A stretch of 38,033 nucleotides of DNA from a virus. The position numbers were made by a program, and so were the translations under genes. Shown here in pieces: positions 25,897 through 36,258 of this stretch. Below the pieces are notes generated by a model, which was given only the letters and a program-made list of their open reading frames with translations, did no database searches and was not told the DNA's origin. The first letter of the stretch is position 1. Each line of letters opens with the position of its first letter. The stretch spans positions 1 to 38,033 of the IMG/VR virus record IMGVR_UViG_3300009159_000008; one strand, 5' to 3'.

Positions 25897-26132
25897 ACCC
25901 GATCAAACTAATCATCATGCGCCGTCGTGCGCGCCAAGGCCACCTCAACTTGATGTCACGTCACCTAATCCAATGCGCCGATCTCATAGATGAACTACGC
26001 CGAGAGAACCGTGCGCTGCGAATCCGTGGCGAGCGTCTAGCGCAAGCCATTGAGAACAACGACTGGACAGTTGACTACGCAATCGTATTGAGCGACAGCG
26101 TCTCAGCATGGCGGGAGTTTGACGAATCATGA
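25893..26132 (+). CDS. Small basic coiled-coil protein
   Basis: 79 residues from GTG overlapping the annealase stop (GTGA). Basic N-terminus MRRRARQGHLNLMSRHL, then a heptad-like helix LIDELRRENRALRIRGERLAQAIENN, then an acidic tail. Coupled to the next gene by ATGA. Unknown; possibly binds nucleic acid or a neighbour. Confidence 0.55.
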   Translation: MNPIKLIIMRRRARQGHLNLMSRHLIQCADLIDELRRENRALRIRGERLAQAIENNDWTVDYAIVLSDSVSAWREFDES

Positions 26133-26809
26133 CAGGCGAAAGCGTTACCTTCAACTTCATCCCCGTTCAAGACTGGGTCAGCAAAGCACGATGCCGTGGC
26201 ATGGATCCGAACATCTTCATGCCTGAGCCTGGCGACAGCACCGCTGAGATCAAAGAAATCTGTAACGGCAAGATGGTCAAGCGTTTCAACCGTGACAAGC
26301 AACGCAACGAGCTGGTAGGCGAACCGCCCTGCCCAGTCCGTGGACAATGCTTGCAGTATGCGATGGAACTTCCCGGCAAGGTCGTCGGGATCTTCGGTGG
26401 CACATCAGAGAAAGAACGTCGTGCGATGCGTACAGAGTTTCGTATGGACGGTGCAGCCAAGCGCATCCAGCACGGCACTATCGGTGGCTACAAAGCTGAA
26501 TGGCGATTTGGACTAGAGCATTGCGATGCTTGTATCGCGGCCAATGTGGAAACGACTCGACGCAACAAAGCCCAACAGAAATCCAAAGTAAAACATGGAA
26601 CATATGCTGGATATCGTTCGGAGAAGCGACTAGGGTTGCCGATATGCGAAGCCTGCCAGCAAGCGTACGAGGTAGAGAAAGCCGACTACCTTTCCAAGAC
26701 GACAGCCCTAGAAACGGACTCACCGTTACGCCAGGTGCTGAACCTACTGCACTCAGTTACAACTGCCGACTGGCCGATAGCAAAGGACATAGCAAGTGAA
26801 CAAGCCTAA
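26129..26809 (+). CDS. WhiB-like Fe-S regulator with extra Zn-type repeats
   Basis: 226 residues. C22, C45, C68 and C74 plus GIFGGTSEKERR (87-98, the WhiB G[IV]WGG turn with Phe) identify a WhiB-like [4Fe-4S] protein. Unlike the standard C-x14-22-C-x2-C-x5-C, Cys2 and Cys3 are separated by 22 residues, a basic insertion (KMVKRFNRDKQRNELVG). Residues about 114-137 and 157-180 are two copies of HGT-x2-GY-x4-R-x-GL-x2-C-x2-C, a small probable zinc unit found in actinophages. Standard WhiB proteins bind sigma factor to change transcription; here control of host or phage promoters is inferred. WhiB supports an actinobacterial host. Confidence 0.82.
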   Translation: MTGESVTFNFIPVQDWVSKARCRGMDPNIFMPEPGDSTAEIKEICNGKMVKRFNRDKQRNELVGEPPCPVRGQCLQYAMELPGKVVGIFGGTSEKERRAMRTEFRMDGAAKRIQHGTIGGYKAEWRFGLEHCDACIAANVETTRRNKAQQKSKVKHGTYAGYRSEKRLGLPICEACQQAYEVEKADYLSKTTALETDSPLRQVLNLLHSVTTADWPIAKDIASEQA

Positions 26810-29337: not shown

Positions 29338-29518
29338 CCACAAGCACTACAAGCCGTTACGCTGTCCCAAATGCCTCAACGTGTTAGGCGTCAAATGGGG
29401 ATCAAACCAGGGACAAAAATACGCTTACTTAGCTTGCGTGTCGGCCATGTGCGAAATAACAGAGTCAGGTGCAGAACCCGACCCGAACCGATCCCCATCA
29501 GGTTCCACCTTGATCTGA
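29330..29518 (+). CDS. Zinc-ribbon-like protein, convergent with integrase
   Basis: 62 residues from GTG at 29330 inside the previous gene. LRCPKCLNVLGVKWG and LACVSAMC give CxxC and Cx4C, a ribbon-like set. The last 94 bp overlap the 3' end of the minus-strand recombinase, an uncommon convergent overlap that would tie their evolution. End of the early plus-strand operon. Confidence 0.55.
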   Translation: MDSHKHYKPLRCPKCLNVLGVKWGSNQGQKYAYLACVSAMCEITESGAEPDPNRSPSGSTLI

Positions 29519-30348
29519 GCTATGACATCAGCCTGGCTAACCAGCGATACAGGATTGAGTAAGCGCAAAGTCTGCCGAACATACCGATCATTTGTATGGC
29601 CGAGCCACTTCGCTATCACCGGGACAGGAACACCACGCTGAAACTGACGCTGGACAGCCCAACGCCGCATATCCTGCACCGTGAGCCGACGACCGACAGC
29701 ACCCGAAGCGACATCATTGATCGTCTCAGTCGCGTGCTTAGAACCAAACGTCCCACCGAGCGTAGTAGTGGCAGCGAACACCGCCGTCAGACCTAGAGTC
29801 AACACTTCAAGACGACCATCCACCGGGATCTCGCGCCTGTTACCTCGACGAGAACGCACCGTGACCAGCGTTTTCCCTTCCCAGGTGCGAACGTCAGTCT
29901 TACGAATTCGGAGAGCTTCAGCGCAGTCACAGCCACCCCAGGCGACCATTGCGGCGAGCCATTCCCACCGAGGCCCACGCTGAGAGAACGCTGACATGAC
30001 CAGCACCATCTCATCATCGGACGGCACAGTTGAATTATCAAGCACGATGACCCGTTTCGGCATCTTCACCGAATGCAAACCGTGAACCTTAAGCACGCCA
30101 GCCTCGACGAGCGCATCCATCCACTTAGCGACCCCACAAACACGCGACGCAACCGACGTAGACGTATACCGAGAAGCCATCCAATCCACGAACAGTTGAG
30201 CGTTCACAGCCGTGCAATCCAGCGGATGGATATCAACCAAAGCGCACCACTTCTGCCAGGTGACAATGTCTTTCTTATACCGTTTACGAGTATGGATCGA
30301 GGCATAGCCCCCCAAGAAATGAGCCGTAACAGAGCGAACAGAAGCCAT
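29425..30348 (-). CDS. Degenerate tyrosine recombinase (integrase-like)
   Basis: 307 residues from the ATG at 30348 (a TTG at 30354 is also open). An N-terminal SAM-like core-binding domain (about 1-100) and a catalytic-type domain (about 108-270) can be seen. The usual Arg-I in GxRxxE reads DCAEAL (Asp141), the beta-strand Lys is Arg (SRRGNRREIPV), the HxxR box is QDMRR (224-228 area), LGH is kept (249-251), and the nucleophile site nine residues after LGH is Thr; the nearest Tyr is five after (Tyr256). So the fold remains but four of six catalytic positions are altered. It may bind DNA without strand transfer, or use shifted residues. It overlaps the 29330 gene. Confidence 0.75.
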   Translation of the reverse strand: MASVRSVTAHFLGGYASIHTRKRYKKDIVTWQKWCALVDIHPLDCTAVNAQLFVDWMASRYTSTSVASRVCGVAKWMDALVEAGVLKVHGLHSVKMPKRVIVLDNSTVPSDDEMVLVMSAFSQRGPRWEWLAAMVAWGGCDCAEALRIRKTDVRTWEGKTLVTVRSRRGNRREIPVDGRLEVLTLGLTAVFAATTTLGGTFGSKHATETINDVASGAVGRRLTVQDMRRWAVQRQFQRGVPVPVIAKWLGHTNDRYVRQTLRLLNPVSLVSQADVIAQIKVEPDGDRFGSGSAPDSVISHMADTQAK

Positions 30349-30365
30349 AAACAATGTTTACCACA

Positions 30366-30572
30366 CTAATTCGGAATTATTCGCCTCAAAAGCACGCTGT
30401 CGGGCCATATCTGCGGAAATATTTTGCTGTCAAGCACGCTGTCTTCCCACACCCAGCGCAGTTCGGGGTTTGACGCTTGATCGCCCGTGACCAGCTCGCC
30501 ATGCCGGGCGAGGTATTCGGCTGCAAAACACCCCAAACGCCCGCACCTATGACACCCCGCGCATATCGTCAT
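30366..30572 (-). CDS. Possible small Cys-rich protein upstream of integrase
   Basis: 68 residues from an ATG just downstream of the terminator. MTICAGCHRCGRLGC gives CxxCxxC plus another Cys; the rest is polar. The second half is encoded by the direct-repeat region (PDSVLL and EDSVLD echo it), which argues for caution. It ends 17 bp before the integrase ATG. No family recognised; may not be real. Confidence 0.3.
   Translation of the reverse strand: MTICAGCHRCGRLGCFAAEYLARHGELVTGDQASNPELRWVWEDSVLDSKIFPQIWPDSVLLRRIIPN
30390..30443. repeat. Direct repeat AAGCACGCTGTC x2 upstream of integrase
   Basis: Two exact 12-bp copies at 30390-30401 and 30432-30443, 42 bp apart (about four helical turns). 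CAAGCACGCT occurs again at 33882-33891 near the other minus-strand promoter. Position upstream of an integrase gene suits operator or arm-type sites; coding overlap with a doubtful small ORF is the alternative. Confidence 0.65.
30405..30433 (-). promoter_or_regulatory. Weak candidate promoter for integrase
   Basis: On the minus strand TTGACA (30428-30433) is followed at 16-17 bp by GATATG or ATATGG. The -10 is poor. The -35 lies between the two 12-bp direct repeats, so a protein bound to them could control it. Confidence 0.35.
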
Positions 30573-30589
30573 GACGAAATACACCCAAC

Positions 30590-30621
30590 AAAAAACCCGC
30601 ACCATATCGGCGCGGGCTTTT
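30590..30621. terminator. Bidirectional terminator between minus operon and integrase
   Basis: Stem CCCGCACC (30596-30603) / GGCGCGGG (30609-30616), loop ATATC, one G-U pair. On the minus strand it is followed by six T; on the plus strand by CTTTT. It ends the minus-strand operon 23 bp after the stop at 30644. Confidence 0.85.
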
Positions 30622-30643
30622 CGTTCTCGGTATGTCGGCGCGC

Positions 30644-30928
30644 CTATTCGATGACACCCCGCGCGCCGAGTCCGTACGCATGAATGACCGCGACCAACTC
30701 GCGCGCCGATTCGGCAACCGGGCAATCAAGAACAAACCAGCGACCACCAGCAGCACCGATCTTCTCAAGCCACAACGACCAACACCCCGAAGCAATAGAG
30801 CCATATCGCCAACGGTAACCCGCAACCGGGGGAAGCCCCCGCGCAACAATCGGCAAACAACCCGACCCGCACCGATGGCCTAACGGATCAAGACCCACGC
30901 AGGGCAAACGATCCACGCGCTCAGCCAC
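30644..30928 (-). CDS. Hypothetical Cys-containing protein, last of minus operon
   Basis: 94 residues from the GTG at 30928, which overlaps the previous stop by 8 bp; another GTG lies at 30916. The N-terminus has LPCVGLDPLGHRCGSGCLP, a possible Cys/His site; then AGYRWRYGSIASGC and a closing helix ESARELVAVIHAYGLG. Frame choice is supported by operon spacing and the terminator just after its stop. No family recognised. Confidence 0.5.
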   Translation of the reverse strand: MAERVDRLPCVGLDPLGHRCGSGCLPIVARGLPPVAGYRWRYGSIASGCWSLWLEKIGAAGGRWFVLDCPVAESARELVAVIHAYGLGARGVIE

Positions 30929-31043
30929 GACGCACCAACCACAACGCAAACAGCCCCGCAACGGCAACAAACGCGAACCCGCGAAAATCCCACGAAATAA
31001 CAGACTCACACCAACCTTCCGCACAACGAATCACGCCGATCAT
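30921..31043 (-). CDS. 40-aa single-TM micro-protein
   Basis: ATG overlaps the preceding stop (ATGA). Short polar start MIGVIRCAEGWCESVISWDF, then a hydrophobic helix FAFVAVAGLFALWLV ending VRRG. Looks like a small membrane protein; unknown. Confidence 0.5.
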   Translation of the reverse strand: MIGVIRCAEGWCESVISWDFRGFAFVAVAGLFALWLVRRG

Positions 31044-31249
31044 GACCGACCGCCAAACCGTTGGAGCCGATAGCCCCCGCGCCGATGTAGTTCGCCACAG
31101 TCGGCGCAATACGGCGACCCTGCAACGGCGGGACGGTAGCAGTACACGGGGACGGGATACGAACCCATGAGCGCAGAGGTGCGAGGCGTATAGCCGATCT
31201 GAAACTCACACGCACGAGGCAGACGAAACGAGTCTGATGGACGGATCAC
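31040..31249 (-). CDS. Small Cys-rich protein
   Basis: 69 residues from GTG overlapping the stop of the larger gene upstream (GTGA). The C-terminal half has VYCYRPAVAGSPYCADCGELH: C-x11-C-x2-C plus His, suggesting a zinc-binding peptide. Coupled at both ends, so probably translated. Confidence 0.55.
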   Translation of the reverse strand: MIRPSDSFRLPRACEFQIGYTPRTSALMGSYPVPVYCYRPAVAGSPYCADCGELHRRGGYRLQRFGGRS

Positions 31250-32229
31250 AACGCCACCAGCCCGCGACGAACCCGCACCGACACCGCAGAACCCAATCGC
31301 CCCGCCGTCTTGCCGTTATTCTTGCCCCCGTGCAATAGGAATGTGACACCACGAACCCGCCCGCCTGGCAAACACACCCCGCAAGCAACGCAAGCCCCAA
31401 CACCCAACCCGCCACGAACAGCCGACGACCGCCGACCATCCAACCCGACCACATGAGCGGAAACATCGACACCATCTCGCGCCCACTTGCCTGTCGCGGG
31501 ACACTCAACCGCCGACGGTACAGAAGCAACCGCCAAAGCGCGCGCCCAAAGTTCTACGGCGTGAGTCTGATTATCGGCAAGCATCGCCAACGGCAAACCA
31601 AGCCGACTACCCGCCCGCGCCATCTTGGCGACGTTCTCAGAATCAGCCGAAAGAAACACCCGCAAATTATCGGGAGCAGGTAGCAGGCTCTTCACCTTGA
31701 CCGCGTCCCGCGTGTAGATCCAATGATCTACCGATGAAGTCGCAACAACCGCAGAACGCATCGCGCGCCCGTACCAAGTCGCGAAAATATCACCGCCCGA
31801 ATGCCAACGGAAACACGGCGACACAACACCGCGCGCCCGTTGCTGGTTCTCGGAATGTTGAACACACGCAACCAACGCCGACACGACCGCAGTCTGACCC
31901 GCGCATTGTTTCAAGTGTTGAAGGTTTGACAAGTTGACCGAAGCACCGCGAGCGAACGCGCCGTACAAGCTCTCAAGGTTTGCTGCATAACAATCGACAC
32001 ATGCCGAGGTTGTGGCATCACAAGACCCGCCCGCATTTATTGGGCCAACCGGGAGCGGTAAAGCATTCGGAACTAACGCCTTAGCCGAACCCTTGAAAGG
32101 TATATCTACTATGGGCGAGGTTTTCGCGTCGTGATGAAGCATAAACCGCAACGACAAACCACAACGGCACAACACAACAACACCGCCCCCAGGTGACGCT
32201 ATGACAGTAGGTAAACGATCTTTACGCAT
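31246..32229 (-). CDS. Gp88-like Cys-cluster protein (copy 1, large form)
   Basis: 327 residues with a strong AAGGGG site before the ATG. After an N-terminal beta segment, SCDATTSACVDCYAANLE gives C70-x6-C77-x2-C80-YA. Later come FRWHSGGDIF, WIYTRDAVKVKSLLP and NLRVFLSAD. The order CxnCxxCYA, RxHxxGDxF, YTR/YTK and LxxSxD is that of Gp88 and Gp37/Gp68-like phage and plasmid proteins. A three-Cys cluster before YA could hold Fe-S; some relatives look radical-SAM-like, but this is inference. A shorter relative is at 35515. The C-terminal 80 residues carry another CVACGVC. It is GC-rich with G/T-rich third positions. Confidence 0.7.
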   Translation of the reverse strand: MRKDRLPTVIASPGGGVVVLCRCGLSLRFMLHHDAKTSPIVDIPFKGSAKALVPNALPLPVGPINAGGSCDATTSACVDCYAANLESLYGAFARGASVNLSNLQHLKQCAGQTAVVSALVACVQHSENQQRARGVVSPCFRWHSGGDIFATWYGRAMRSAVVATSSVDHWIYTRDAVKVKSLLPAPDNLRVFLSADSENVAKMARAGSRLGLPLAMLADNQTHAVELWARALAVASVPSAVECPATGKWARDGVDVSAHVVGLDGRRSSAVRGGLGVGACVACGVCLPGGRVRGVTFLLHGGKNNGKTAGRLGSAVSVRVRRGLVAL

Positions 32230-32245
32230 GGATTCCCCTTACATA

Positions 32246-32269
32246 TAGAAAGCCCGCCCCCATTGGGCG
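32246..32269 (-). terminator. Weak terminator-like hairpin
   Basis: On the minus strand CGCCC-AATGG-GGGCG is followed by GGCTTTCTAT. It lies between the 32328 gene stop and the Gp88-like gene. The T-run is short, so it may attenuate rather than stop. Confidence 0.35.
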
Positions 32270-32300
32270 AGCAGTACGCGGTCAGGAATCGAACCCAACA
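32269..32300 (-). other. tRNA-3'-end-like fragment (possible attP core)
   Basis: On the minus strand the segment around 32281-32300 reads GTTGGGTTCGATTCCTGAC: a T-loop TTCGATT flanked by a stem of G-C and G-U pairs, followed by CCGCG. This is how the 3' part of a tRNA looks. No matching acceptor or D/anticodon arms occur upstream at the right distance, so it is not an intact tRNA. Many integrating phages carry the 3' end of a host tRNA as attP; the integrase is 2 kb away. Treat as a candidate. Confidence 0.4.
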
Positions 32301-32327
32301 ACCCCCCGACGGGGCGCGCGATAACCG

Positions 32328-32783
32328 TTAAAACTGCAAAGGGTGAAAAGTATCCACCCCAAACAAAGTGAACGCGAGATAGTTCTCACCATCAGGCAGA
32401 ATCACGTCGTTAATATTCAAGTATTCGCCGTCCCCAGGTGGAGCAAAAAGCACATGAGCGTCAGGGTCTAACCCTTCCAAAAATACGCGCAACATACGGA
32501 CGGTCAATATGCCCCGCTCCCATTCAGTTGGAGCAGTCGCACAACTTGAGCAAACAAAAACGAAATCGCGATCATCTCCCATTACGTCCCACGGCACTAC
32601 CGCGTCGTAACGAGGGCTGACCCATTTCTCTTCACCCCGTAATTCACACGATGCACATCTGAAAAGAGTCGACGCACTACGCGCCGACGACCAATCGCGC
32701 CCGCTCTCATTAAATGCGCGCCACCGTTGCGCGTCGCATTCTTGGCAAGGATTCCCGAACACATGAAGAGTCGAACAACTCAC
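32328..32783 (-). CDS. Hypothetical protein with Cys pairs
   Basis: 151 residues from the GTG at 32783 that overlaps the previous stop (GTGA); a longer GTG at 32822 is open. PCQEC, RCASC and VCSSC are three CxxC pairs in the first 95 residues, suggesting two zinc sites. The C-terminus MLRVFLEGLDPDAHVLFAPPGDGEYLNINDVILP is acidic and looks like a conserved domain of phage proteins (L-E-x-x-D-P-D-A-x-V-x-F). No function known. Confidence 0.65.
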   Translation of the reverse strand: MSCSTLHVFGNPCQECDAQRWRAFNESGRDWSSARSASTLFRCASCELRGEEKWVSPRYDAVVPWDVMGDDRDFVFVCSSCATAPTEWERGILTVRMLRVFLEGLDPDAHVLFAPPGDGEYLNINDVILPDGENYLAFTLFGVDTFHPLQF

Positions 32784-33517
32784 AACGCCACCCGCCAAAT
32801 CTGCGCTTGATATTCGAGACACTTCTCAACAACGCGGTCGAGTATTCGTGGGCAACGATCCCCCGCCCACTTGATCCCGAAATGGTTCATAACGTGTTCA
32901 GTAGTTCCGCCGTACTCGCGCTCATTCTCGTACACGGACTCAATAGCGCACTCGGTACAACGATCACAAAAACCGACGACACGAACCCGCCCGCAGATAT
33001 CACAGTCACCCGACCAAGGTTCCCACATACCGACCGCACTCGTAGCGCACTCGTACCCGTGACGATGGGCGAATGATTCAGAGAACCCGCGCACCTTCTC
33101 AACACCGAGCGACGTCATCAAGTCCCGAACAGTCTCAACAAGGTCACCATATGAAACGTCATAAAGACACTCACCCTCGTCGAGTTTGTCGCGTTGAACG
33201 CTCAAGAACTCCCAGCCGACTAAATACGTCTGACCCGTAATATCATCATCTAGATGCAAATTGCCGTCAGGGCAAACCGCAAACATGAAACAACCATCGA
33301 CGCCGTTATGAATCCCGTCGACATAAGTCGACAAGACGCAACACATACCGCCCGTCTGCTCCACCTTCCATAGTTCCCGTCTCGGGGTGGTCGTATTAAG
33401 TAATCCAATTACATCCATATATACCGTCTCAAGATCGTAGAGATAGCGGAAATACTTTTGCCCGCCGTCCATCACTTTGAGTTCCTGCTCGGTCGCGAGT
33501 GCTAACCGTGCGCGCAT
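32780..33517 (-). CDS. Hypothetical protein with C-terminal Cys pairs
   Basis: 245 residues from the ATG at 33517 (TGATG overlap with the upstream gene and GGGGGGTGAAG upstream); a GTG form at 33532 is less likely. The N-terminal half is mixed alpha-beta with acidic segments (CPDGNLHLDDDITGQTYL). The C-terminal part has CDICGRVRVVGFCDRCTEC, which could bind zinc, followed by a helical region. No family recognised. Second gene of the minus operon. Confidence 0.6.
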   Translation of the reverse strand: MRARLALATEQELKVMDGGQKYFRYLYDLETVYMDVIGLLNTTTPRRELWKVEQTGGMCCVLSTYVDGIHNGVDGCFMFAVCPDGNLHLDDDITGQTYLVGWEFLSVQRDKLDEGECLYDVSYGDLVETVRDLMTSLGVEKVRGFSESFAHRHGYECATSAVGMWEPWSGDCDICGRVRVVGFCDRCTECAIESVYENEREYGGTTEHVMNHFGIKWAGDRCPRILDRVVEKCLEYQAQIWRVAL

Positions 33518-33696
33518 CACTTCACCCCCCACGAAATATCACGAGCCACAACAGCACAGCCCCACGACGACACCGTGCCATCAGCAAAACGCACCTTCAC
33601 CCGATCATTAAAAATCGAAAGTACGACCCCTCGCTCAATTCCTAAATCATGCGACACGATCACCGCGTCACCCTTAACAAATCCATAACCACTCAT
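33517..33696 (-). CDS. Small SH3-like beta-barrel protein
   Basis: 59 residues, too short for many callers. GYGFVKGDAVIVSHDLGIERGVVLSIFNDRVKVRFADGTV reads as alternating strands with the G-D-x-V, G-x-V and V-x-F-x-D-G turn pattern of SH3, Tudor or KOW-like barrels. AGGGG lies upstream (TAGGGGTTAATC-ATG) and the stop overlaps the next ATG (TGATG). First gene of the minus operon. Partner unknown. Confidence 0.6.
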   Translation of the reverse strand: MSGYGFVKGDAVIVSHDLGIERGVVLSIFNDRVKVRFADGTVSSWGCAVVARDISWGVK

Positions 33697-33757: not shown

Positions 33758-33787
33758 ATTATGCACACACAAACAAGCGACAGTCAA
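33758..33787 (-). promoter_or_regulatory. Promoter of minus-strand operon
   Basis: Minus-strand TTGACT (33782-33787), 18-bp spacer rich in T and G, CATAAT (33758-33763), about 62 bp before the ATG at 33696. It is the best-looking promoter on the minus strand and would drive 33696 down to 30644. Confidence 0.65.
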
Positions 33788-34632
33788 GTGTTAACCCCCC
33801 AATATCTAAACCACCAAAACCGGGACGACCAACCCGAGGAAATTCGAGGCAAGTCAAGCACCATCTAGAGCTCTCTGTCGGCAAGCACGCTAACCGCCCC
33901 GCGACAGCCCGAGACCAACGAGACGGTAGCACCCCGTGAGGGACGCGCACCCCGACTGACCGAGTACCCACGAACCCCCGATGCCCCGTCTCACTATGCG
34001 ACCCGCCGATGTATCACCGTGTTACGAGTAGCCCCCACCACCTACCTCGTGGCCATGACCACCCGCCGACCGACCACCCCACGCCCATTGGGGGGCCCCA
34101 CCCCCCCCCTACCAATTCACTCTCCCGTATTTTTTGACCTTTTTGAAAGGGTGTCCTTGCCGGGGGCTTGGGGTCTTCGACCTTGGAAGGTCAACTGATG
34201 CAAGGTCAAGGTCAAGGGCTTCCGCCGTTGGCGGCTAACGCCTCTCCATCGCCAGCGTGGCTGTCGAAGTTCGTTGTTGTCATCCGTGTGTTGTCACATC
34301 GGTGACTTTAACTTTGTCTCAGACCTTTCGGTCTGCCCCAATGCCCTACCGTTGGCGGCCCTACACCGTACCAACACCCGAACCTTAACGATGTTCACTC
34401 GTTTCATATATTAACTACCTACCCACGGCTTACTAGCTGGCATCCGATTCGACTGTCGGCTTGACTCTATGCATGGGATCCGAACCCCCTTTCAGGTCAC
34501 GTTGTCCCTACGCTCCTGGTTAGACAGGCTTACTACGGGCGAGTTCCGCTGGTGTGTCATCCCGACATGACCAGCTTCGTAAGTTCGGTGACAGAACAAT
34601 ACCATGAGGATGTATGGTGATAGTGTCAGTTT
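33788..34632. other. Gene-free region with hairpins and repeats (candidate control/origin/pac)
   Basis: No supported gene on either strand. It holds a GGGGGGCCCC element with a C9 run (34091-34109), AAGGTC/GACCTT repeats (34134-34216), and several small hairpins: GACCTT-GG-AAGGTC near 34179, CCGCC-GTT-GGCGG near 34222, GTCAC-ATCG-GTGAC near 34293, AGACC-TTTC-GGTCT near 34321, GTCAT-x6-ATGAC near 34556. It separates the divergently transcribed minus operon and packaging genes. Such regions in short-tailed phages may hold replication origins, pac sites or operators; the sequence alone does not say which. Confidence 0.55.
34134..34216. repeat. Iteron-like TTGACCTT/AAGGTCAA repeats
   Basis: TTGACCTT at 34134-34141, GACCTT at 34179-34184, AAGGTCAA at 34187-34194, 34202-34209 and 34208-34215 (tandem AAGGTC-AAGGTC-AAGGGC). 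Five occurrences in about 80 bp in both orientations suggest a DNA-binding protein site cluster. Confidence 0.6.
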
Positions 34633-34661
34633 TTGTAACAGGACAAAGTCTTTTAGATATT
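34633..34661 (+). promoter_or_regulatory. Candidate promoter for packaging operon
   Basis: TTGTAA (34633-34638), 17-bp spacer, GATATT (34656-34661), 22 bp before the ATG at 34683. It overlaps the first of two TTTTAGATAT direct repeats (34651-34660, 34665-34674); GGAG follows at 34675. The repeats may be an operator. Confidence 0.4.
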
Positions 34662-34967: not shown

Positions 34968-35518
34968 CGATGCGTAAAGCGTTCGACGACGCAGATGACA
35001 TCATTGAAGGTATCAAAGGTCGCCGCCCCACCCAATCAAAGCCCACCAAAGTGGTGGATGACTTAAATGGAGTGGTAATTATTTCTAAAGGCGAGGCTCA
35101 ACAAGCCAAAAGAGCGCACCGTGCCGCCGACATTGAAGAGGTTCGGGTCAAAAAGGTGCTGGAAAAGGAAGAACGACGCAAGTCAGCGGAACAATTAAAG
35201 GTTTTGGGGCAAGATCTGCTCGCTTCAGGGGTCGCTAGTCGGGAAATACTCCCCAAGTTGGCTCAATCCATCATTGTTGACCTCGGTTTACGCCTAGTTA
35301 GCAACGAATGGGAGATCAAGTCAGCCGAAGAAGCTACTAAGGTGGCAAAGATTTGGTATGACATCCTCAGGTTAGAGTCAGGCCAAGCAACAACGATCAA
35401 CGAGAACCGTACCGGGAACCCCGAAGACCGTTTATCACGCTTAGAAGAGTTAAGATCAGAAGCGAAAGCCCGTGTCGAGGCAGGGTTGCGAGCAATAGGG
35501 GATGGACAAAACGGATGA
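34964..35518 (+). CDS. Putative small terminase subunit
   Basis: 184 residues from the ATG that overlaps the previous stop. Basic N-terminal region, a Lys/Arg/Glu coiled coil (RAADIEEVRVKKVLEKEERRKS), then a helical domain with AQSIIVDLGLRLVSNEWEIKSAEEATKVAKIWYDILRLESGQ, a pattern I recognise from conserved proteins upstream of phage large terminases. Position two genes before the large terminase supports a DNA-recognition subunit. A canonical N-terminal HTH is not obvious, hence moderate confidence. Confidence 0.6.
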   Translation: MTMRKAFDDADDIIEGIKGRRPTQSKPTKVVDDLNGVVIISKGEAQQAKRAHRAADIEEVRVKKVLEKEERRKSAEQLKVLGQDLLASGVASREILPKLAQSIIVDLGLRLVSNEWEIKSAEEATKVAKIWYDILRLESGQATTINENRTGNPEDRLSRLEELRSEAKARVEAGLRAIGDGQNG

Positions 35519-36258
35519 CAACTAAACCTGACCGTTTATTGACACAGAACAGCGAACTACGCCGTGTCGGCGTGTGGAACTGGACTCTCCCAGCGCACAC
35601 TCTAAAACTTACGGACGGCTCCTGGTTCAACACTTGCCCGAACGCTGGTGCTTGTGGCCGTGTTTGCTACGCCAAAATGGGAACATACCTGTTCTCTAAC
35701 GTGCGCCGTCGCCACCTGCAAAACCTTGAGTATGTGTTGTATAACGAAAATTGGTGGCAAGAAATGGCTATCGAATTAGATCACAAACGATTCTTGCCAA
35801 CAAACAAACCACATGATCTTCCCCACGATGAAAACGATCAATGGTTGCACCAATGGGTCTTGAGTGGTGGACGAGCCGTCCGAATCCACGATGCAGGCGA
35901 CTTCTTTAGCCCTGAGTATTTGAATGATTGGATAGATGTTGCATACGAACACGACGACATTCTTTTCTACGCATACACCAAAGAAGTAGAAATGCTTAAA
36001 AAAAGCAGTTACATACCTAAAAATTTGAGAGTTGTGTACTCATTTGGTGGCAAACAAGACCACATGATTGACCGAGAACTAGATCGACACGCCGATGTCT
36101 TCCCCACCAAAGAAGCACTAGAAGCAGCGGGATACTTTGACCAGTCAGACAATGACCTACTTGCCGTCGTTGCACTAAGCAACAAGATAGGAATCGTGGC
36201 TAACAATCTGCCAGTCGCTAACAAGCGGTTTGCGGGTCGCACCATGAGCGAACTATGA
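35515..36258 (+). CDS. Gp88-like Cys-cluster protein (copy 2, short form)
   Basis: 247 residues, coupled to neighbours by ATGA on both sides. FNTCPNAGACGRVCYAKMG gives C41-x5-C47-x3-C51-YA. Then RRRHLQNLEY, RAVRIHDAGDFFSPEYLNDW, DDILFYAYTKEVEML and RVVYSFGGKQDHM. The order CPxAxxCxxxCYA, RxHxxGDFFxxEY, YAYTK is that of mycobacteriophage Gp88 (PF17338) as I know it. Function is unknown; a metal or Fe-S cofactor is suggested by the Cys set. It sits between the putative small and the large terminase subunits, which is remarkable. Codon use matches its neighbours, unlike the GC-rich relative at 31246. Confidence 0.8.
   Translation: MTTKPDRLLTQNSELRRVGVWNWTLPAHTLKLTDGSWFNTCPNAGACGRVCYAKMGTYLFSNVRRRHLQNLEYVLYNENWWQEMAIELDHKRFLPTNKPHDLPHDENDQWLHQWVLSGGRAVRIHDAGDFFSPEYLNDWIDVAYEHDDILFYAYTKEVEMLKKSSYIPKNLRVVYSFGGKQDHMIDRELDRHADVFPTKEALEAAGYFDQSDNDLLAVVALSNKIGIVANNLPVANKRFAGRTMSEL

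Follow-up and report, generated by a model that had tools for sequence, protein, structure and literature searches.

We analysed a 38,033-base virus record (IMG/VR IMGVR_UViG_3300009159_000008, hereafter the window), which carries portal, capsid, terminase, RecT-like, WhiB-like, DNA methyltransferase and integrase genes, and concentrated on seven minus-strand genes, called A to G, that lie beside the integrase gene (Table 1). Judging from comparison with related phages, these genes form a real operon that is linked to the integrase, and the leader of gene D contains a tRNA-shaped element that was previously uncatalogued, was missed by an earlier sequence-only reading of this DNA and is the most interesting part of the locus. 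The explanation that we favor, and to which we give about even chances as a whole, is that of a leftward operon on the lysogeny side, in a phage lineage that encodes an integrase: a single promoter would drive A to G, the terminator would stop the transcript before the integrase gene, the tRNA-like element would act as a post-transcriptional boundary, D would be a GP88/DUF5131-type enzyme with a radical-SAM-like iron-sulfur site, and G would be an accessory or regulator associated with the integrase.

A leftward operon linked to the integrase

All seven genes listed by the sequence-only reading were present on the minus strand, once their starts had been corrected, and their starts and stops overlap as it had described: ATGA for A/B and E/F, GTGA for B/C and D/E, while F and G share a few bases. 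The genes are really coding, since the ratios of nonsynonymous to synonymous substitution rates (dN/dS) obtained against relatives support it: 0.14–0.24 for D, 0.11–0.19 for close copies of G, 0.15–0.29 for B, 0.28 for C and, in a single comparison, 0.38 for A. These five genes are under purifying selection. E and F were assessed on fewer comparisons, with a ratio of 0.06 for E against one relative (10 synonymous versus 2 nonsynonymous changes) and of 0.39–0.66 for F, which amounts to weaker coding support.

The promoter-like site was the best of nine matches, against 5.4 expected by chance, and the GGGGTTAACACTTGAC-type block that contains it is kept in relatives. At the position of the terminator, relatives have other hairpins, mostly with T-runs. 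The terminator is therefore not likely to be a chance structure; it is conserved in function with a different sequence. Thus both signals proposed by the sequence-only reading held up. The GC enrichment that it had ascribed to the whole block is confined to about 30.5–32.0 kb (GC fraction 0.60–0.61), the A–C part being at about 0.53.

Loci for comparison were fetched via D, via the terminase and via the integrase; the relatives of the window are uncultivated IMG/VR contigs, and the DNA of the operon block had no match among 50,697 phage records. The common order is integrase, G, D, usually C, variable genes, a noncoding region and then the rightward terminase genes. G was found in the window and in all of the fetched contigs, about 24, in which this integrase is seen together with the flank upstream of it, and D was absent, even by profile search, from two integrase-bearing loci (L066 and L111/L125). 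The sequence-only reading had named homologues that are plus-strand genes elsewhere as evidence that would refute it; no such case occurred, and in all the loci seen neither the order nor the strand of D and G changed with respect to the integrase and the terminase. By contrast, A, B, C, E and F are gained or lost singly among relatives, and C itself has a conserved core followed by a variable C-terminal extension. Finally, in a sister clade whose TerL is about 70% identical, the upstream DNA, over as much as 10 kb, lacks integrase, D and G and contains almost only rightward genes. Since the order integrase–G–D is fixed and the sister clade lacks all three, the 3' half of the operon is an integrase-linked module, whereas the 5' half (A, B and C) is a hypervariable accessory zone. 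We therefore read the operon as lysogeny-side and integrase-linked, with accessory slots. Gene-by-gene variation and the fixed D–G–integrase order rule out the block as one mobile unit, so that the architecture and the accessory character of the 5' genes are what remains of the earlier picture of a cassette moving as a whole.

Expression on the lysogeny side would fit this arrangement, given that the integrase adjoins the operon, that the operon lies on the strand opposite the structural genes and that the module is missing in the integrase-less clade. The integrase was recognized by a match to phrog_1 (E-value 4.5e-13), its Pfam match being under the cut-off. Upstream of it, direct repeats GACAGCGTGCTT at 30443-30432 and 30401-30390 flank the AT-rich core AAAATATTT and are conserved; this site is a candidate attP or integrase operator. 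No integrated copy of the phage was found. No match to an immunity repressor was obtained in the block or in the other window genes scanned, which were part of the total.

Its strict pairing with the integrase makes G a candidate for an accessory factor that acts in integration or excision. Among phage records, nothing related to G turned up at E≤0.01, and the predicted fold of G had no structure match. In some relatives, G stands in tandem duplicate (L008:8708-9251 and L010:5656-6172), the copies being about 39% and 86% identical to the G of the window.

As to the host, one 5.2-kb contig of an Acidimicrobiales metagenome-assembled genome (MAG) carries a 69% identical integrase together with D and G. 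This contig and the WhiB-like protein gene of the window (26129-26809, plus strand) point, indirectly, to an actinobacterial host, and the host of the phage lineage probably belongs to the Actinobacteria of the class Acidimicrobiia.

The sequence-only reading had further suggested a prophage-expressed accessory cassette serving phage defense or lysogenic conversion, to which superinfection exclusion can be added. The hypervariable 5' genes, the small Cys-rich and membrane proteins, the place by the integrase and the operon's own promoter are in keeping with such a role. However, none of the seven proteins matched anything in PADLOC at E≤1, the small genes have no NCBIfam or informative Pfam match either, and D and G are stable core genes rather than cargo. 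We consider this role decidedly unlikely, and the defense claim unproven.

A tRNA-like element between genes C and D

The 98-nucleotide gap between C and D (32229-32328) holds the tRNA-like element and a strong hairpin, and an AAGGGG Shine–Dalgarno-like site (32235-32240) lies between this second hairpin and the ATG of D. Over 1.4 Mb, a descriptor search returned 22 hits with 10 distinct sequences; in every case a hairpin, a purine-rich site and an ATG come next, and three block-shuffled passes with the same descriptor returned none. Because the descriptor was built from known examples, the informative part of this result is the zero background and the lack of hits elsewhere in the loci. Across copies the loop is a 7-nucleotide TTCRANT, and copies in relatives precede genes other than D.

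Comparison of nine sequences supports the fold. In an alignment spliced by hand so as to omit the inner hairpin, and thereby biased toward pairing, an 11-pair composite helix was 99.0% paired and had 8 pairs that differ on both sides; its covariation was 0.808, compared with 0.271 after shuffling (0/500) and 0.09–0.32 when the helix was slid. Folded singly and unaided, four of five divergent copies and the window copy take the same shape.

The element is not a tRNA gene in the usual sense. ARAGORN called 0 tRNA genes, and there is no cloverleaf, one short hairpin replacing the D and anticodon arms; in Rfam, the element stayed under the gathering threshold for every family. A pattern scan of the viral collection matched contigs of the lineage only, with a pattern that misses divergent copies, the window copy included, and 198 genomes gave none. 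A tRNA remnant marking attP was also considered and rejected: even with as many as 2 mismatches allowed, TTGGGTTCGATTCCTGACCGCG had no match among 198 genomes from the host MAG's class, and the element recurs before other genes.

Reported substrates of ribonuclease P (RNase P) include the M3 RNA and the C4 antisense RNA of phages as well as mRNAs (PMC11143913). By analogy with these substrates, RNase P-type processing at the element would be the most likely mechanism: a host enzyme recognizing acceptor/T-arm helices, RNase P first, would cut the long transcript at the element, so that the downstream gene would have a 5' end and an expression level of its own. Like M3 and C4 RNAs and the tRNA-like structures of mRNAs, the element is a tRNA-like helix in a phage transcript; unlike M3 and C4, it is intercistronic, sits in a leader, recurs before different genes and has no Rfam match or ARAGORN call. 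A broader proposal, which we put forward tentatively and rate as less likely than not, is that it represents a new class of portable tRNA-like leader (acceptor/T-arm helix, hairpin and ribosome-binding site) placed before accessory genes, through which host tRNA-processing enzymes, or another tRNA-recognizing factor, would cut or control a polycistronic transcript. If such leaders are processed or bound by tRNA enzymes, phages would be able to separate and tune the genes of a single transcript by simple, portable means; the exact sites for a test are known.

Several points, besides the pairing bias mentioned above, speak against our explanation of the operon. The copy at 2736-2784 in L056, taken alone, prefers a different fold, and the whole stretch in the window is not more stable than its shuffles (z 0.73). 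The element ends in ACT, not CCA, and it is not essential, since it is missing in several relatives in which D follows directly on C (e.g. L098 and L110). No solved structure in the PDB matches D at E≤0.001. Lysogeny is argued from the integrase alone, because no repressor, excisionase or attP/attB pair was identified, and the host assignment from a single MAG contig and the WhiB-like gene.

Instead of a processing site, the element and its hairpin could form a transcription attenuator or a ligand-sensing riboswitch for D. Indeed, the hairpin 32272-32252, followed by TTTC, scores as terminator-like; it has a longer T-run in L099 and is placed in the leader, just ahead of the start codon. Yet most other copies have no T-run after the hairpin (GGGCGAGTTCAATAGATAAGGGG and similar), and the genes downstream vary and mostly bear no relation to one another, in contrast to the regulon of a metabolite riboswitch, which makes either device rather improbable. 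As for a role in DNA recombination, as an attC-like site of the integron kind or a cassette boundary at which the adjoining tyrosine integrase would shuffle operon genes, the element does mark boundaries within the hypervariable zone and contains a GTTGGGT resembling an attC-type box, but there are at most 2 elements per operon and no gene arrays, the second attC-type box is missing in L013, L056 and L105, the T-loop residues are conserved as in RNA, and an attempt to read it by hand as an integron attC broke down because the boxes were not consistent, so that this role is highly improbable.

Table 1. Positions of the operon genes and of the associated elements in the window
Feature	Positions	Strand	Remarks
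Gene A	33517-33696	-	59 aa; putatively SH3-like (label of the sequence-only reading); few relatives have A
Gene B	32780-33517	-	245 aa; Cys-pair protein, hypervariable, without family
Gene C	32328-32783	-	151 aa; GTG start at 32783; Cys-pair protein
Gene D	31246-32229	-	327 aa; PF17338 GP88 family
Gene E	31040-31249	-	69 aa; small, Cys-rich; one relative only, 95% identical
Gene F	30921-31043	-	40 aa; candidate transmembrane microprotein; weakest coding evidence
Gene G	30644-30925	-	93 aa; without family; duplicated in some relatives
Operon promoter (predicted)	33758-33787	-	TTGACT-18-CATAAT, inside conserved GGGGTTAACACTTGAC block; 10/12 match
Intrinsic terminator (predicted)	~30587-30625	-	ends operon before integrase
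Tyrosine integrase	29425-30348	-	ATG 30348; separate unit downstream of terminator
Conserved site in terminator–integrase interval	30388-30456	-	CTGGGTGTGGG and direct repeats GACAGCGTGCTT around AAAATATTT
tRNA-like element	32276-32319	-	acceptor-like helix, short hairpin, T-arm-like stem, TTCGATT 7-nt loop
Second leader hairpin	32252-32272	-	GCTCGCCC/GGGGGCGGGC
Structured noncoding region, candidate large RNA	34090-34660	-	upstream of promoter, same strand as operon
CAAAAAATACGGGA...GGGGGGTGGGGCCCCCC motif, cos-like candidate	34075-34139	-	kept in most sampled loci of lineage
aa, amino acids; nt, nucleotides.

The gene D protein

D scored 67.5 bits against PF17338 (curated cut-off 24.4), the GP88 family known, for example, from Streptomyces and Mycobacterium phages, and all of its 20 homologues (20/20) matched as well; relatives of D occur in 244 phage records, the best being about 36% identical. 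The residues invariant in the 20 homologues include C70-X6-C77-X2-C80-YA, G146-D147 and C243...C280-X2-C283-X2-C286. In an AlphaFold2 model (pLDDT, the per-residue confidence score, 81.7; pTM, the predicted template-modeling score, 0.83), D adopts a partial beta/alpha (TIM-like) barrel, in which the three-Cys loop follows the first strand and GD the second.

This placement is the one seen in DUF5131/Gp37/Gp68 (PF07505) and radical-SAM proteins. The DUF5131 hidden Markov model (HMM) matches D weakly over the Cys loop, with E-values down to 0.0014; the neighbors of D in the viral structure library are GP88, Gp37/Gp68 and DUF7227, followed by radical-SAM phage proteins at E above 0.05, and weak PDB matches include radical-SAM enzymes. 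On the other hand, the HMM matches remain under the curated cut-off, and the canonical radical-SAM motif CX3CX2C is replaced by CX6CX2C, a spacing that is invariant in the 20 homologues. Since no solved structure reaches the threshold given above, radical-SAM-like chemistry, as the model hints at it, is a lead only. The second Cys cluster, C...CX2CX2C at the C-terminus, is extra relative to the alignment of the plus-strand GP88 paralogue of the window, and suggests an auxiliary iron-sulfur site. D also differs from the GP88 family in its fixed place beside the integrase. The literature on GP88 and on DUF5131 offered nothing about function, and the two Cys clusters of D would suggest a two-cluster iron-sulfur enzyme in a widespread phage family of unknown function.

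The plus-strand paralogue lies at 35515-36258, between the g34922 gene and terL, and is present in some relatives and absent from others. It scored 150.4 bits against PF17338, likewise above the curated cut-off, and shares the loop region with D (hhalign probability 68%, E-value 4.9e-5). In addition, L137 and L138, genomes of the host MAG's class, encode GP88-like proteins matching the D profile with E-values of 1e-21 and 2e-13.

The conserved noncoding region upstream of the operon

Between the divergent operons lies a stretch of 500–600 nucleotides that the sequence-only reading had likewise overlooked and that is near-invariant in close relatives while A–C diverge; indels of 1–2 bases speak against its being coding. 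Seven helices were drawn from 18 sequences; with pairs counted over 34318-34565, they were 95.1% paired, with 9 pairs changed on both sides. Covariation was 0.220, compared with 0.091 after shuffling (0/500) and at most 0.104 when slid, for a structure picked from the same alignment as was scored. A covariance model of the 3' domain found 22 of 55 sources at 75–89 bits. It did not find the domain in L105, L106, L108 and L109, all of which keep D and G, and the region is therefore independent of the operon.

Rfam, including GOLLD and ROOL, had no match for the region or for its counterpart in the sister clade, and no DNA similarity to phage records was found. Like GOLLD and ROOL (PMC12286853), the region is large, structured, phage-encoded and of unknown function; unlike them, it has no tRNA island nearby and occupies another place in the genome. 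It may thus add an RNA candidate of the GOLLD/ROOL kind.

This region could instead be a DNA packaging or replication site (cos/pac/ori) that is not transcribed. It adjoins the terminase genes and has the widely conserved CAAAAAATACGGG...GGGGTGGGGCCCCCC motif, where four contigs end; indeed, L038, L051, L053 and L063 end in or at CAAAAAATACGGGA...GGGGGGTGGGGCCCCCC. The compensatory changes in the helices over 18 sequences argue for RNA instead, as do the GNRA loops found on one strand. Moreover, the sister phages that lack the integrase carry a related RNA-like region, which covaries strongly and shares the CCGGAAACGG core with its GNRA loop. We regard a DNA site as somewhat unlikely.

In bacterial genomes, the covariance model gave hits of 24–29 bits in 7 of 296, compared with 75–89 in phages, and these were treated as noise or unresolved. 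Noncoding regions with GNRA hairpins occur in relatives as well, at L080:916-1231, L093:6834-7149 and others.

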